Source of the DNA: Sphingomonadales bacterium 63-6 | GTDB lineage: Bacteria > Pseudomonadota > Alphaproteobacteria > Sphingomonadales > Sphingomonadaceae | NCBI GenBank assembly: GCA_001898545.1 | Contig: MKUB01000173.1 | Span: 19,524-61,620 of the forward strand | Direction of reading: 5' to 3' | DNA length: 42,097 nucleotides | Part shown: positions 13,686-26,339 of the stretch, piece after piece | Position numbering within the stretch: position 1 is the first letter of the stretch | Layout of the letters: each line of letters opens with the position of its first letter | The notes under the pieces: model-generated | What the model was told of the DNA's origin: nothing | The model's database searches: none | Seen by the model: only the letters and a program-made list of their open reading frames with translations | Position numbers and translations under genes: made by a program

Positions 13686-15260
13686 TCACTCCCACTCGAT
13701 AGTGCCAGGCGGCTTCGACGTATAATCGTAGACCACCCGGTTGATCCCGCGCACTTCATTGATGATGCGCGTGGCGACGCGGCTGAGGAAGGCCGCATCA
13801 TAGGGATAGATGTCAGCGGTCATGCCATCGGTGCTGGTCACGGCGCGCAGTGCGCAGACGCTGTCATAGGTTCGCCCGTCGCCCATTACGCCCACGGTTT
13901 TGACCGGTAGCAGCACGGCGAAGGCCTGCCAGATCGCGTCATAGAGGCCCGCATTGCGGATCTCTTCCAGATAGATCGCATCGGCGCGGCGCAGAATGTC
14001 GCAGCGTTCCTTGGTCACTTCACCCGGAATGCGGATGGCCAGGCCCGGCCCCGGGAAGGGGTGACGGCCCACGAAGATTTCCGGCAGGCCCAGTTCCCGA
14101 CCGAGCGCGCGGACCTCGTCCTTGAACAATTCGCGCAGCGGTTCCACCAGCTGCATGTTCATGCGCTCAGGCAGGCCGCCGACATTGTGATGGCTCTTGA
14201 TCGTCACCGAAGGCCCGCCGGTGAAGCTGACGCTCTCGATCACGTCGGGATAGAGCGTGCCCTGCGCAAGGAAGTCCGCCCCGCCGATCTTCTTGGCCTC
14301 CGCCTCGAACAGATCGATGAAGGCCTTGCCGATGAACTTGCGTTTGGCTTCCGGATCGGTGACACCTGCCAGGCCGCCAAGGAACATCTCCTCCGCGTCC
14401 ACATGGACCAGCGGGATATTGTAATGGTCGCGGAACAGGGTGACGACCTGCTCGGCCTCGTTCATCCGCATCAGCCCGTGATCGACGAAAACGCAGGTGA
14501 GCTGATCGCCGATCGCCTCGTGGATCAGCACGGCGGCAACGGCAGAGTCGACCCCGCCGGACAGGCCGCAGATCACTCGGCCGCTGCCCACCTGGGCGCG
14601 GATTTCCTCGATCTTGGTTTTGCGGAACTCGGCCATCGTCCAGTCGCCCTTCAGGCCGCAGACATGGCGCACGAAATTGGCGATCAGCTTGGCGCCGTCG
14701 GGCGTGTGGACCACTTCGGGGTGGAACTGCGTACCGTAATAGCGCCGCTCGTCGTCCGCGATCAGGGCGAAGGGCGCGCCATCGCTGGTGGCAACGATGC
14801 GGAAGCCGGGAGCGAATTTCGTTACCTTGTCCCCGTGACTCATCCACACCTGATGCCGGTCACCCACTTGCCACAGGCCGTCGAACAGCACGCAGGGCTC
14901 GGTCACCGTCAGAAAGGCACGGCCGAATTCGCCGCCTTCGCCGGTTTCATGGCCGGGGCGGACTTCGCCGCCCAGTTGATGGCTCATTACCTGCTGGCCA
15001 TAGCAGATGCCCAGGATCGGCAGTCCGCTGTCGAACAACACTTGCGGCGCGCGCGGGCTGTCTTCGTCGCAGACCGAGGCGGGCGATCCCGAAAGGATGA
15101 TCCCCTTGGGCTTGAGGCGATGGAACGCCTCTTCCGCCATCGAGAATGGCGCGATTTCGGAATAGACCCCTGCTTCACGCACGCGGCGGGCAATGAGCTG
15201 GGTCACCTGGCTGCCGAAGTCGACAATCAGGATGGAGTCGGGAAGATGTGATGGTTCCAT
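13686..15260 (-). CDS. guaA: Glutamine-hydrolysing GMP synthase
   Basis: Class I GATase [41 protein letters not shown]-loop; [32 protein letters not shown]-terminus. Confidence 0.97.
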
Positions 15261-15394
15261 CCCGGCGCGTTAGTATCAAGCACGCCGCGCTGTCCAGCCA
15301 TCGCGCGCGTGCAACCCCGCGCGGAGAGCATCGGGGGATTGCAAGGCCGAGCATGACGAGAGTTTCCGCCCGGGCAATCAATGGTGAAAATTAT

Positions 15395-15448
15395 GCAACA
15401 CCGCTGTCATATTTCGCACTTGCAACATTTCCACATCGCGACCATTTG
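15395..15448 (+). promoter_or_regulatory. Element A of a four-copy promoter-like motif
   Basis: GCAA(15395)-N13-TTTCGCACTTGCA(15412-15424); TTGCAA-N17-CATTTG as a -35/-10-like pair. Confidence 0.6.
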
Positions 15449-15520
15449 CGCCCCCGGAAGCTGAGGGGGCACGAAGCCTTCCGGCGAACCCAAAGAAAAC
15501 ACAAACGACAGGTGGACACT

Positions 15521-15604
15521 ATGCGCATCCTCGCAACCCATGTCCTTCCGCTGCTTGCTGCGGTTTCGACCAGCGGCCTGCTGCTGAGCGCCGCGATCAT
15601 CTGA
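15521..15604 (+). CDS. Small ORF, 27 aa hydrophobic peptide (MRILATHVLPLLAAVSTSGLLLSAAII)
   Basis: ATG at 15521 preceded by AGGTGG; lies between element A and a GC-rich hairpin. Present in the track only as the tail of a longer ORF. Confidence 0.45.
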   Translation: MRILATHVLPLLAAVSTSGLLLSAAII

Positions 15605-15633
15605 TCACGCTCTCAATTGGACCCCCAAGGCAA

Positions 15634-15660
15634 GCCGCCCCCACCCAAGAGGGGGCGGCC
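15634..15660 (+). terminator. GC-rich hairpin after the first 27-codon ORF
   Basis: GCCGCCCCC-ACCCAAGA-GGGGGCGGC; weak T tract. Confidence 0.5.
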
Positions 15661-15714
15661 CCAAAGGGCGTTTGTTCCCATTTCATTTCCATGACAAGCA
15701 GCGTTGAGTTTCAC

Positions 15715-15768
15715 GCAACGCCCCTCGCAATTTTCGCATTTGCACAGTTTGCTTGTGCAGTGCACCAT
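15715..15768 (+). promoter_or_regulatory. Element B of the four-copy promoter-like motif
   Basis: GCAA(15715)-N13-TTTCGCATTTGCA(15732-15744); TTGCAC-N17-CACCAT. Confidence 0.6.
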
Positions 15769-15848
15769 GAGGCTCACAGAACGATTAGAACGACAAGTAC
15801 AGGATGACCAAGGAAGGCGGCCTGGACCACCTTAACGGAGAATTCGAA

Positions 15849-16142
15849 ATGCGTAGCCTTGTCGTAACCGCCTTTGCCGCCATGTGCCTCTCGGGCGCTT
15901 TCGCCGCCCCCGCCGCGGCTGAAGAAGTGTCCGTTTCCGTGCCGCACACCGATCTGGACCTCACCACCGAAGCTGGCCGCAAGGCCCTCGAAACCCGTGT
16001 TGCCGCCGCGATCAAGGTCGCCTGCGTCAAGCCGGACAGCCGCGATCTCAAGACCATGCAGGCCTGGGAAAGCTGCAAGTCGGCAGCCAAGTCCGGCGCT
16101 GAAGAACAGCTGGCCAAGAGTTTCGCGTTCGCAAGCATCTAA
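15849..16142 (+). CDS. UrcA family protein (secreted, two Cys)
   Basis: Signal peptide MRSLVVTAFAAMCLSGAFAAPAAAEE; VSVSVPHTDLDLTTEAGRKALETRVAAAIKVACV...WESCKSAA typical of UrcA. Confidence 0.82.
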   Translation: MRSLVVTAFAAMCLSGAFAAPAAAEEVSVSVPHTDLDLTTEAGRKALETRVAAAIKVACVKPDSRDLKTMQAWESCKSAAKSGAEEQLAKSFAFASI

Positions 16143-16164
16143 GCCGCGGCCGCCAGTTAATTCG

Positions 16165-16200
16165 AATGCCGTCCTCGCTCAGCGGGGGCGGCATTTTCGT
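16165..16200 (+). terminator. Hairpin downstream of the first UrcA gene
   Basis: AATGCCG-tcctcgctcagcggggg-CGGCATT followed by TTCGTT. Confidence 0.55.
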
Positions 16201-16233
16201 TATGTAGCATCCGTTATCGCAGTTGCATTGGGC

Positions 16234-16287
16234 GCAATGGACGTCGCTATTTTCGCACTTGCAGCATCGGCGGTAGGCCACCATATG
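16234..16287 (+). promoter_or_regulatory. Element C of the four-copy promoter-like motif
   Basis: GCAA(16234)-N13-TTTCGCACTTGCA(16251-16263); TTGCAG-N17-CATATG. Confidence 0.6.
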
Positions 16288-16313
16288 CGCCCTCAGCAAA
16301 CAGTTACACAGTT

Positions 16314-16352
16314 TCGCGGGCAGCTCCTCTCCCCCCCTTTAGCTGCCCGCGA
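16314..16352 (+). other. 12-bp stem hairpin in the 5' leader of the second 27-codon ORF
   Basis: TCGCGGGCAGCT-(15 nt)-AGCTGCCCGCGA perfect inverted repeat. Confidence 0.75.
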
Positions 16353-16373
16353 TCCCTTCCAAGGAGCCTAGTC

Positions 16374-16457
16374 ATGACCGCTTTCGCAAAGCGCGTTGTC
16401 GAACTCTATGTTCGGGGTGCCGCCAGGTATCCGATGCCGTTTATCTGGACGCTCTGA
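16374..16457 (+). CDS. Small ORF, 27 aa (MTAFAKRVVELYVRGAARYPMPFIWTL)
   Basis: AAGGAG Shine-Dalgarno at 16361-16366, ATG at 16374, TGA at 16455; flanked by element C and a strong terminator. Confidence 0.55.
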   Translation: MTAFAKRVVELYVRGAARYPMPFIWTL

Positions 16458-16489
16458 GCCTCCAAGAACGCATTCACGCGGAATAGTAG

Positions 16490-16520
16490 ACAGCCGCCCT
16501 TAGGGCGGCTGTTTTCGTTT
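16490..16520 (+). terminator. Rho-independent terminator after the second 27-codon ORF
   Basis: ACAGCCGCCC-TTA-GGGCGGCTGT followed by TTTCGTTT. Confidence 0.8.
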
Positions 16521-16552
16521 CCGTATCTTGTGCTGCGGTAGTTGTCGCAGAC

Positions 16553-16606
16553 GCAACAACCGGCGAAATTTTTGCATTTGCACAATTTCCTGCTGCACTG
16601 CAGCAT
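16553..16606 (+). promoter_or_regulatory. Element D of the four-copy promoter-like motif
   Basis: GCAA(16553)-N13-TTTTGCATTTGCA(16570-16582); TTGCAC-N17-CAGCAT. Confidence 0.6.
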
Positions 16607-16694
16607 GGCTTCGACAAACACAGCCTGCTCCTGGCGAGAAACCACAAGAGGGTCGCCAGGCCCGCACCGGTCGAACCTCGAAAAGGAATGTGCA

Positions 16695-19653
<2,959 letters not shown>

Positions 19654-23218: not shown

Positions 23219-24262
23219 TCACTTCTTGTCGAGATGCTTCGCCATGAAGGGCAGCACCACTTCGTCGAAGCGCTGGCCGATGCGGTTGACGTGGTCGCCG
23301 TCATAGACGGCCCATTGATTGGCGATGCCGAAGCGATCCAGCTCCTCGTGGATCATCGTATCGTCATGCAGCAGCCCGTCCTTGTCCCCGGCATCCGAGC
23401 CAATGGCGCGGAAGCTCTTGAGCGCGGGCACGTGGGAAGCAACCATGGCATAGGGCGAATTGGCCGCCCATTTGGCGATCACCAGCTGGTCCACCTTGCC
23501 GTCCTTATAGGGGAAGTCCGCGAAATAGGGCGGGTTCTGCGGGTTGGGTGACCATGCGACGATGGAGGAAAGCCCGGCACGAGTGCCGAAATCGGCCTTC
23601 ACGCCCTGCTCGATTGGCAGGCTGGAAAGCTTCTTCGCGCTTTCTTCCGTTTCGGTGCGCGGGCTGATGCAGCAGGCATTCTGCGCATAGATCGCGTTGA
23701 AAGTCTGCGGATAGGTCATGCCGATCACCCAGGTGCCGTAACCGCCCATGGAATGGCCCGCCAGGCCGCGCCCTTCGCGCTTGGCGATGGTGCGGTAATG
23801 GCTGTCCACATAGGCGACCAGATCCTTGGCCACGAAGGCACGGAAATCGCCGGTCGTCACCGAAGTGGAATACATGCTGCCGCCCAGCTTGGTGAGCGTA
23901 TCGGGCACTACCACGATGAATTCCTCGCCCCGCTTGGCCGAGTTGTTCACCGCATCGGGCACCTTCATGAAGTTGTAGAAATTGCGCCCATCAATCGCGA
24001 AGCCGTGGAGGTAATAGACCACGCGGTAACGCTTCTTCTTGTCCTTGCCATAGCTGGGGGGAAGCACCACCAGCGCCTCGCGCTCGGTGGAATTGCCTTC
24101 CAGATTGCCTTCCAGCGAAGGGCTGTGGACCTTGATCGTTTCCACCGTGATTCCGGCAGGCACCGGGGCGGGGGGCGCGGTGATGTTCTGCGCCATGGCG
24201 GGCGTGGCGGCCAGCACGGCGAATGTCGCCGCCAGAGCCGCGAGTTTCTTCAGCATTTCCAA
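23219..24262 (-). CDS. Secreted esterase D/S-formylglutathione hydrolase-like alpha/beta hydrolase (paralogue 3)
   Basis: Signal peptide LAALAATFAVLAATPAMAQ; SLEGNLEGNSTERE; nucleophile GHSMGGYGTW; YDGDHVNRI. Confidence 0.85.
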   Translation of the reverse strand: MEMLKKLAALAATFAVLAATPAMAQNITAPPAPVPAGITVETIKVHSPSLEGNLEGNSTEREALVVLPPSYGKDKKKRYRVVYYLHGFAIDGRNFYNFMKVPDAVNNSAKRGEEFIVVVPDTLTKLGGSMYSTSVTTGDFRAFVAKDLVAYVDSHYRTIAKREGRGLAGHSMGGYGTWVIGMTYPQTFNAIYAQNACCISPRTETEESAKKLSSLPIEQGVKADFGTRAGLSSIVAWSPNPQNPPYFADFPYKDGKVDQLVIAKWAANSPYAMVASHVPALKSFRAIGSDAGDKDGLLHDDTMIHEELDRFGIANQWAVYDGDHVNRIGQRFDEVVLPFMAKHLDKK

Positions 24263-24280
24263 GAATCCTTCCCTGTTCCT

Positions 24281-25297
24281 CTAGCGGTCCAGATGGGCGG
24301 CGAAGAAGGGCAGCACAGCACTGCGCAGCCGATCCTTCACCTTGTCCCCATGGCCGCCATCGTAGATCTCCAGCTTGTGAACGACACCGAAGCGGGTCAG
24401 TTCCGAAGACATGGCGCGGCTGTCCGTCGCGAGCCCGTCCTTGTCCCCTACATCGAGCATGATCGCTTCATATTGCTGCAACTCGCGAATATGCTGCGGC
24501 AACATGCCGATCAGCGAGTTGGCTGCCATGCGCGCCTGCACCACGGGGTCGATCGCGCCATCGGCCAGCAGCCCGGCATTGATGAAATTGGGCGGTCGCT
24601 GCGGGTCGGGCGACCATGCGGCCAGCTGCGCCAGATCGCCCTGTACGCCGCCAACAGGGGCGGACAGGTCCACCGTTCCATCGTCGGCCTGCGCGCGCTC
24701 CGCCATTTCCCTGGTGATGAGCTTCACCGATCCGCCGCCCGCGCTCATGACATAAAGGCTGGAGAACACTTCCGGGTGCTTCATCCCCACGCGCATCGCG
24801 CCGTAACCGCCCATGGAATGACCGGCCAGCCCCCTGCTTTCCCGCCGGGCAAGTGTGCGATAGTGAGCGTCCACCCAGGCGACGAGGTCGTGCGCCACGA
24901 AATCCTCGTAATTCCCGGTGGTGGGCGAGTTGGAATAGAACGATCCGCGATGCTTGGAAAAGCCGTCCGGCATCACGAAGATCACGTCATTGCCCGCCGC
25001 GCCCGCGCCGGTCAGCGCCGCTTCCAGATCGAACAGCTCCGCATAGGCCTTGGGCTCCACGAAATAGCCATGGAGGAAATAGACAACCGGATAGCGCTTA
25101 TCCGGGTGCTGGTCGTAACCCGGCGGGGTGACGACATAGACGGTGCGATCCGCCGGATTGCCTTCCAGATTGCTCGCGATGGCGGGGCTGTGGACCTTCA
25201 CCAGATCCACCCGCGCCTTTTCCTGTGCGGCGGCGGGGTGGATCTGGGCGAAGGTGGCGAGAATGAGCGCCGCAAGGACGGCAAGGCGCCGGGCCAT
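24281..25297 (-). CDS. Secreted esterase D-like alpha/beta hydrolase (paralogue 2)
   Basis: MARRLAVLAALILATFAQIHPAAAQEKARVDLVKVHSPAIASNLEGNPADR; GHSMGGYGAM; YDGGHGDKV. Confidence 0.85.
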   Translation of the reverse strand: MARRLAVLAALILATFAQIHPAAAQEKARVDLVKVHSPAIASNLEGNPADRTVYVVTPPGYDQHPDKRYPVVYFLHGYFVEPKAYAELFDLEAALTGAGAAGNDVIFVMPDGFSKHRGSFYSNSPTTGNYEDFVAHDLVAWVDAHYRTLARRESRGLAGHSMGGYGAMRVGMKHPEVFSSLYVMSAGGGSVKLITREMAERAQADDGTVDLSAPVGGVQGDLAQLAAWSPDPQRPPNFINAGLLADGAIDPVVQARMAANSLIGMLPQHIRELQQYEAIMLDVGDKDGLATDSRAMSSELTRFGVVHKLEIYDGGHGDKVKDRLRSAVLPFFAAHLDR

Positions 25298-25301
25298 GCG
25301 C

Positions 25302-26339
25302 TTATTGCCGCGCGAGATGCTGGGCGAAGAAGGGCAGCAGCTTCGTCCGGATACGTTCCGGAATGCGGTTGCCGTGATCGCCGTCATAGGTTTCCCAACC
25401 ATGGGCCACGCCATAAGTGGTCAATTCCGCATTCAGCGCCGTGTTGTCGTTGAACAGGAAATCCTTGTCGCCCACTTCCAGCCCGATGGCCTTCATCTGG
25501 CGCAGGGCCGGGAGATATTGCGGCACCATCGCCAGAATCGAATTGGCGGCGAGCTTGGCATTCACCAGCGGGTCCATCGTGCCGTCGGCTTTGAGCCCGG
25601 TATCGACATATTTGGGCGGCTTGGTCGGGTCGGGCGACCATGTGGCCAGAGTGGAAAGCTGGGCCAGCCCGCCGAAATCGGCCTTGGCGATATCCTCTTC
25701 AGTCATCGCCTCGATCTTCCTGGCGCCCGCCTCGTCCACTTTCATGGGTGAAAGGCAGCAGGCGCTCATCGCGTAGATGCTGGAGAAGGTCTGCGGATAT
25801 TTCATCGCCAGCCGCATGGTGCCATAACCGCCCATGGAATGGCCCGAAAGGCCGCGCGCCTCGCGCTTGGCGACGGTGCGGTAAGTGGCATCCACCCACT
25901 TCACCAGATCTTCGCCCACGAAAGCTTCGTAATTCCCGACAGTGGGCGAACTGGAATAGAAGCCGCCCTTCAGCTTGGAATGGCCATCGGGGATGACCAT
26001 GATCACTTCGTTCCCGGCGCGGGCAGCCTCGTCCACGGCCTCGTCGAACTTCATGGTCTCCTGATACATCTGGGGCGTGGCCCAGTAACCGTGCAGGAAA
26101 TAGACCACCGGATAGCGCTTTTCAGGATGCTGGTCATAGCCCGGAGGGGTGACCACAAAGGCACCGCGATCGGCGGAATTGCCTTCCAGATTGCCTTCCA
26201 TCGCCTTGCTGTGGAACGTCTTCCATTCGATCCGCGCCTTTTCCTGCGCTGCGGCCGGGCTGGCGGTCAGGGCAACCACCCCGAGCGCGGATAGGCCCAG
26301 TGCGGATTGGACAAGGCCCCGCTTGATACGATTGAGCAT
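25302..26339 (-). CDS. Secreted esterase D-like alpha/beta hydrolase (paralogue 1)
   Basis: Signal peptide to AAAQEKARIEWKTFHSKAMEGNLEGNSADR; GHSMGGYGTM; YDGDHGNRI. Confidence 0.85.
   Translation of the reverse strand: MLNRIKRGLVQSALGLSALGVVALTASPAAAQEKARIEWKTFHSKAMEGNLEGNSADRGAFVVTPPGYDQHPEKRYPVVYFLHGYWATPQMYQETMKFDEAVDEAARAGNEVIMVIPDGHSKLKGGFYSSSPTVGNYEAFVGEDLVKWVDATYRTVAKREARGLSGHSMGGYGTMRLAMKYPQTFSSIYAMSACCLSPMKVDEAGARKIEAMTEEDIAKADFGGLAQLSTLATWSPDPTKPPKYVDTGLKADGTMDPLVNAKLAANSILAMVPQYLPALRQMKAIGLEVGDKDFLFNDNTALNAELTTYGVAHGWETYDGDHGNRIPERIRTKLLPFFAQHLARQ

Follow-up and report, generated by a model that had tools for sequence, protein, structure and literature searches.

The window, meaning the whole stretch of 42,097 nucleotides analysed from contig MKUB01000173.1 of Sphingomonadales bacterium 63-6, contains a cluster running from guaA through an array of small ORFs to gyrB. 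Each of the four ORFs in the array stands behind its own copy of one promoter-like element. The features of the cluster are listed below.

13686-19653: guaA-[array]-gyrB cluster, its order kept in several other genera; gyrB on the plus strand, named from its translation
13686-15260, minus strand: guaA, named from its translation
15384-15448, plus strand: predicted operator-promoter copy 1, upstream of microprotein A, profile score 38.3 bits; degenerate distal dyad GGTGA...GCAAC, TTTCGCACTTGCA over the -35 region, -10-like CATTTG at 15443-15448
15521-15604, plus strand: microprotein A, a hydrophobic protein of 27 aa (MRILATHVLPLLAAVSTSGLLLSAAII) with homologues that follow this element in other genera
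15634-15659, plus strand: G+C-rich hairpin after microprotein A, found by folding, a possible transcript end
15703-15768, plus strand: predicted operator-promoter copy 2, upstream of urcA 1, profile score 37 bits; distal dyad GTTGA...GCAAC, TTTCGCATTTGCA, -10-like CACCAT at 15763-15768
15756-15764, no strand assigned: putative PhaR/AniA-type palindrome core TGCAGTGCA, matching YGCRNYGCR and overlapping the -10 of copy 2
15849-16142, plus strand: UrcA-family protein 1, 97 aa, TIGR04433 at 60.9 bits (cut-off 25), signal-peptide-like start
16222-16287, plus strand: predicted operator-promoter copy 3, upstream of microprotein B, profile score 39.8 bits; complete distal dyad GTTGC-N7-GCAA, TTTCGCACTTGCA, -10-like CATATG at 16282-16287
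16314-16352, plus strand: leader hairpin of microprotein B, perfect 12-bp stem with C-rich loop CCTCTCCCCCCCTTT
16374-16457, plus strand: microprotein B, 27 aa, MTAFAKRVVELYVRGAARYPMPFIWTL; other genera have homologues downstream of the same element
16479-16523, plus strand: terminator-like inverted repeat after microprotein B (GCCGCCCTTAGGGCGGC then TGTTTTCGTTT)
16541-16606, plus strand: predicted operator-promoter copy 4, upstream of urcA 2, profile score 34.7 bits; distal dyad GTTGT...GCAAC, TTTTGCATTTGCA, -10-like CAGCAT at 16601-16606
16594-16602, no strand assigned: putative PhaR/AniA-type palindrome core TGCACTGCA, overlapping the -10 of copy 4
16695-16982, plus strand: UrcA-family protein 2, 95 aa, TIGR04433 at 57.1 bits (cut-off 25), signal-peptide-like start

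Elsewhere in the window, three similar esterase-like ORFs lie in tandem on the minus strand (23219-26339).

A scan of the window with GCAA-N13-TTTYGCAYTTGCA returned four zero-mismatch matches, at 15395, 15715, 16234, and 16553, all on the plus strand, against a mean of 0.42 in dinucleotide shuffles even with three mismatches allowed. The offset from GCAA to TTTYGCA is 17 nt in every copy, and TTGCAN is then followed by 17 nt and the -10-like hexamer. These results confirmed the positions and phasing given in a preliminary description of this DNA. Its placement of the copies 70 to 90 nt ahead of different small ORFs also held, the -10-like boxes ending 72-88 nt before the ATGs at 15521, 15849, 16374, and 16695. 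The complete distal dyad TTGC-N7-GCAA is present in copy 3 alone among the window copies, the left half being degenerate in copies 1, 2, and 4. A generic sigma-70 scan called no promoter, and an Rfam search of the window stretch itself gave nothing credible.

Microproteins A and B match no family in Pfam or NCBIfam, and the comparison with relatives reveals two conserved families that ordinary annotation passes over because of their small size. Against close relatives the codon differences are mainly synonymous. Counted as synonymous to non-synonymous, codon differences in microprotein A were 9:4 against genome G140 and 5:9 against the more distant G272, and in microprotein B 6:3 against G195 and 10:4 against G140. 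Microprotein B has a PMPFIW-type end, and at three loci (L035, L037, L039) A and B occur in tandem behind one element. The leader hairpin of microprotein B is found also in G071 and G195, and in G140 a stem of another sequence carries this type of loop; the C-rich-loop hairpin is absent in G009, G015, and G272 and was dropped as a general feature of these leaders. The C-rich loop CCTCTCCCCCCC resembles the anti-Shine-Dalgarno stretch of the sRNA SuhB.

Distribution of the element in the genome and the family

In the whole 3.5 Mb genome the exact pattern occurs five times, compared with about 0.0004 occurrences expected from base composition. The one further copy (G000:C156:4556) lies ahead of the sRNA SuhB (alpha-r8/MmgR, RF00519), which was assigned by the RF00519 covariance model with 52.7 bits at L001:1554-1631, over the 41-bit cut-off. 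The preliminary description had proposed scanning the genome and related sphingomonads, and this was done with a sequence-only profile built from 82 sites. In the own genome the profile found five clear sites only, namely suhB (55 bits) and the four window copies (35-40 bits), and the sixth-best match followed after a large gap, at E 0.027. This weak match (C160:41558, CTTCGCACTTGCA), in a TonB-receptor-like neighbourhood, was set aside as a further target, and another near match (L217) was rejected as lying inside a coding sequence. Further targets may be missing, because the draft genome is about 92% complete.

Across the family, the exact pattern was present in 120 of 301 genomes, and a control pattern read backwards in none of the 301. 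SuhB followed 69 of the 91 distinct G+C-rich sites inspected. When suhB loci were picked by RNA family alone (n = 30), the element stood at a constant distance in nearly all, and 10 loci had the exact pattern; the element is degraded at the suhB loci L185, L196, and L199. Judged by sequence, the same element is the predicted suhB promoter across Sphingomonadaceae. Since most sites precede suhB and suhB loci carry the element, the window copies belong to a family-wide class of suhB-type promoters. These scans support the earlier proposal of a specific regulator's site, tied to a promoter and defining a small predicted regulon. The regulon is not merely local, as had been supposed, because its best-conserved member, suhB, sits on another contig. 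The arrangement suggests that UrcA proteins are tied to an sRNA at the level of the promoter, and SuhB/MmgR is among the most widely conserved sRNA families of Alphaproteobacteria.

Additional profile matches were seen at L272 (G014), L278 (G081), and L280 (G017). Exact matches in Bacteroidetes, Firmicutes, and other groups beyond Alphaproteobacteria appear to be chance matches; the check covered GC-rich loci, and no suhB stood behind any of those inspected.

The lower scores of the window copies, 15-20 bits below suhB, could mean that suhB is the true target and that the window copies are relics of duplicated promoters, hardly used by the regulator. Three of the copies have a degenerate distal half-site, and the similarity between copies 2 and 4 is 79% over 57 nt, as expected of duplicates. 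However, all four copies retain an intact -35 half, and so do copies at the guaA-gyrB locus of other genera, some of which have complete distal dyads (L036, L038, L039). We therefore regard the relic explanation as unlikely.

Operator anatomy and a candidate LysR-type regulator

The logo of the 82 sites reads (R)TTGCR-N5-TGCAA(C), then TTTCGCA-CT-TGCACAA, 17 nt, and CATATA. The TTGC-N7-GCAA dyad is present in 61 of 82 sites versus 0.06 in shuffles, and TTTCGCA-N2-TGCRNAA in 56 of 82 versus 0; conservation of the -10 is loose. Two features thus go beyond the preliminary description: a GTTGC about 12 nt before GCAA, forming the other half of the upstream dyad, and an inverted repeat at the -35, where the relatives made visible the extension of the box into TTTCGCA-N2-TGCRNAA. 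With a transcription start some 7 nt beyond CATATA, the dyad centres would fall near -64 and -36; the predicted starts would then lie near 15455, 15775, 16294, and 16613 in the window, and about 60 nt after GCAA at suhB. The standard layout of LysR-type regulators comprises a recognition site and an activation site. A T-N11-A dyad near -65 and a second site over the -35, as expected of a LysR operator, were found here at a fixed distance, with positions that assume this predicted start. In its anatomy the element matches what is usual for the operator of a LysR-type activator.

A LysR gene that could encode this activator was found in 49 of 61 family genomes, and 19 of these 49 have it next to suhB and divergent from it across a gap of 82-220 nt. 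At L258, L259, and L262 this gap contains the operator, and at L260 the -35 half of it. In the genera with such divergent pairs, the LysR protein shares 45-60% identity with the query. The genera nearest to that of the window have their LysR gene elsewhere, not beside suhB. The own-genome orthologue (G000:C68:18900-19781, 86% identity), outside the window, lies behind a CorC-like gene and does not adjoin suhB, and upstream of it we found only a partial element (TTTTTCGCAACTA). Two of the relocated LysR genes (L231, L234) are preceded by a -35 copy; for most of them no copy of the element was detectable upstream. At L231, in a genome of the same genus, a profile site with the full palindrome TTTCGCACTTGCGAAA stands directly upstream of the LysR gene.

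Over the cut-offs, 47 of the 61 genomes have both LysR and suhB, none has suhB only, two have LysR only, and 12 have neither. The Fisher value of this co-occurrence (5e-11) is inflated by the relatedness of the genomes, so the adjacency of the two genes is the stronger argument. In seven of the 49 LysR genomes there was no profile match at E 1e-4. The 86% identical same-genus orthologue contains HTH_1 (PF00126, 66.4 bits) and LysR_substrate (PF03466, 95.2 bits) domains. The candidate protein was rejected as GcvA proper, with 165.9 bits for NF008352 against a cut-off of 288 bits, and is GcvA-like only. A class-level search outside the family gave proteins of only 33-36% identity at best, which were treated as paralogues. 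We infer that the regulator encoded beside suhB may also be the activator of the window genes. The statement that no regulator was described for the motif still stands within the literature searchable, but a specific candidate, the LysR gene, can now be named.

The element could instead be bound by an envelope- or metal-stress response regulator of the UzcR or ChvI kind. This possibility arises because urcA of Caulobacter is driven by UzcR (PMC8963506), two of the window targets likewise being UrcA-family proteins, and because the predicted Caulobacter ChvI motif, TTGC-N3-GCAA (PMC9731502), has the TTGC and GCAA halves. However, neither the UzcR motif CATTAC-N6-TTAA nor the ChvI motif was found in any of the 82 sites, the dyad spacing here being N7, and neither regulator explains the pairing of LysR with suhB. 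Binding by a UzcR- or ChvI-like protein appears improbable.

A PhaR-type palindrome as a possible second input

The sequence YGCRNYGCR has been described as the core of the PhaR/AniA palindrome (PMC12542648). It occurred in 18 of the 82 spacers compared with 0.3 in shuffles, 15 times at one position against the -10. The core is present in copies 2 and 4, the two urcA promoters, and in many suhB promoters, and copies 1 and 3 lack it. A phaR gene was also found (146 bits). Membership in a PhaR/AniA regulon, which calls for the core in the promoter together with a phaR gene, is thus predicted for copies 2 and 4 only among the window copies. According to a review (PMC6563040), PHB granules and a high growth rate favour suhB transcription in Sphingopyxis granuli, which would be in line with titration of PhaR.

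In genome G001 (L284), a further TTGCAATTGCA with a PhaR-like CTGCACTGCA lies just before the LysR start codon and is possibly the promoter of LysR itself.

For mmgR of Sinorhizobium meliloti, PMC8401924 reports control by NtrC and AniA/PhaR that relies on a conserved dyad between -35 and -10. NtrC activation with PhaR repression could operate here as well, the LysR gene then being an unrelated neighbour, and the enrichment of PhaR cores in the spacers would agree with this. Against it, the NtrC motif TGCAC-N5/7-GTGCA was found in one of 82 sites, and the PhaR core, missing from copies 1 and 3, accounts for the spacer only and not for the two conserved dyads. We consider this combination quite improbable. 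An alternative sigma factor, suggested earlier and for which TTTCGCAYTTGCA would be an extended -35, is very improbable: the -35 region is strongly conserved at a fixed distance from the -10-like box, but normal sigma contacts do not extend to the conserved distal dyad near -64, the -35 segment forms an inverted repeat of its own, and conservation of the -10 is loose. No such factor is needed, because the bipartite dyad and a divergent LysR neighbour fit an activator working with the ordinary holoenzyme.

The element is thus probably the operator-promoter of a GcvA-like LysR activator, with suhB as its primary target, the four window transcripts driven along with it, and PhaR added at copies 2 and 4. 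A LysR tetramer would sit on both dyads, TTGCR-N5-TGCAA near -64 and TTTCGCA-N2-TGCRNAA over the -35, and would bring the ordinary holoenzyme to a promoter that is weak by itself (TTGCAN-17 nt-CATATA-like), presumably activating rather than repressing it and perhaps in response to an inducer. The sRNA suhB (alpha-r8) would be the conserved primary target. In the window's genus, the same operator would drive the four short guaA-gyrB transcripts, which encode the pair of UrcA-family secreted proteins and microproteins A and B. Where the PhaR-type palindrome lies against the -10, as in copies 2 and 4 and many suhB promoters, it would add repression, lifted once PHB granules take up PhaR. More broadly, a LysR protein specific to Sphingomonadaceae and ancestrally divergent with suhB may have captured the guaA-gyrB cluster of UrcA and microprotein genes and, with PhaR, may couple carbon/PHB status to envelope microproteins and SuhB riboregulation; we see this wider scenario as evenly poised. 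The outcome is a concrete candidate regulator gene, its predicted operator, and a predicted regulon of five promoters.

Relation to known alphaproteobacterial systems

The literature searchable, with the primary papers on S. granuli SuhB and on mmgR regulation outside its scope, contained no description of the operator, the regulator, or the microproteins. SuhB of Sphingopyxis granuli TFA is the same sRNA in the same bacterial family, and the SuhB review names neither a regulator nor an operator (PMC6563040). MmgR of S. meliloti and SisA-D of Caulobacter belong to RF00519 like the SuhB studied here. Published work describes mmgR as dependent on its -35/-10 dyad and PhaR (PMC8401924, PMC12542648), whereas a LysR-type operator with a divergent LysR gene, as found here, is not reported for MmgR or SisA-D. 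According to the authors, the Caulobacter sisA-D (alpha-r8) promoters share no motif (PMC12559287), and we therefore do not extend the module to Caulobacter. The UrcA/UzcR regulon of Caulobacter resembles the one described here in placing UrcA-family small secreted proteins (TIGR04433) under one regulator. It differs in that the UzcR motif is absent here and the candidate regulator is of another class.

A parallel in regulator class is VtlR/LsrB of Rhizobiales (Brucella, Agrobacterium, Sinorhizobium), a LysR protein that, like the one proposed here, acts over sRNAs and tiny-ORF transcripts, and whose gene lies beside the abcR sRNA genes in Agrobacterium and Sinorhizobium (PMC7486931). Its target sRNA is AbcR, in contrast to the alpha-r8 SuhB here, and its gene adjoins trxB, whereas the LysR neighbours here are CorC- and YbeY-like genes or suhB; a search of the L233 flanks for a trxB-like CxxC found none. 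The VtlR box GCAT-N3-TG-N3-T is not enriched either (1 of 82 sites versus 0.6 in shuffles). Because the trxB neighbour and the box, two defining features, were not found, we did not file the LysR protein as VtlR. The parallel suggests that control of a few sRNAs and tiny ORFs by a LysR protein may be a recurrent arrangement in Alphaproteobacteria.
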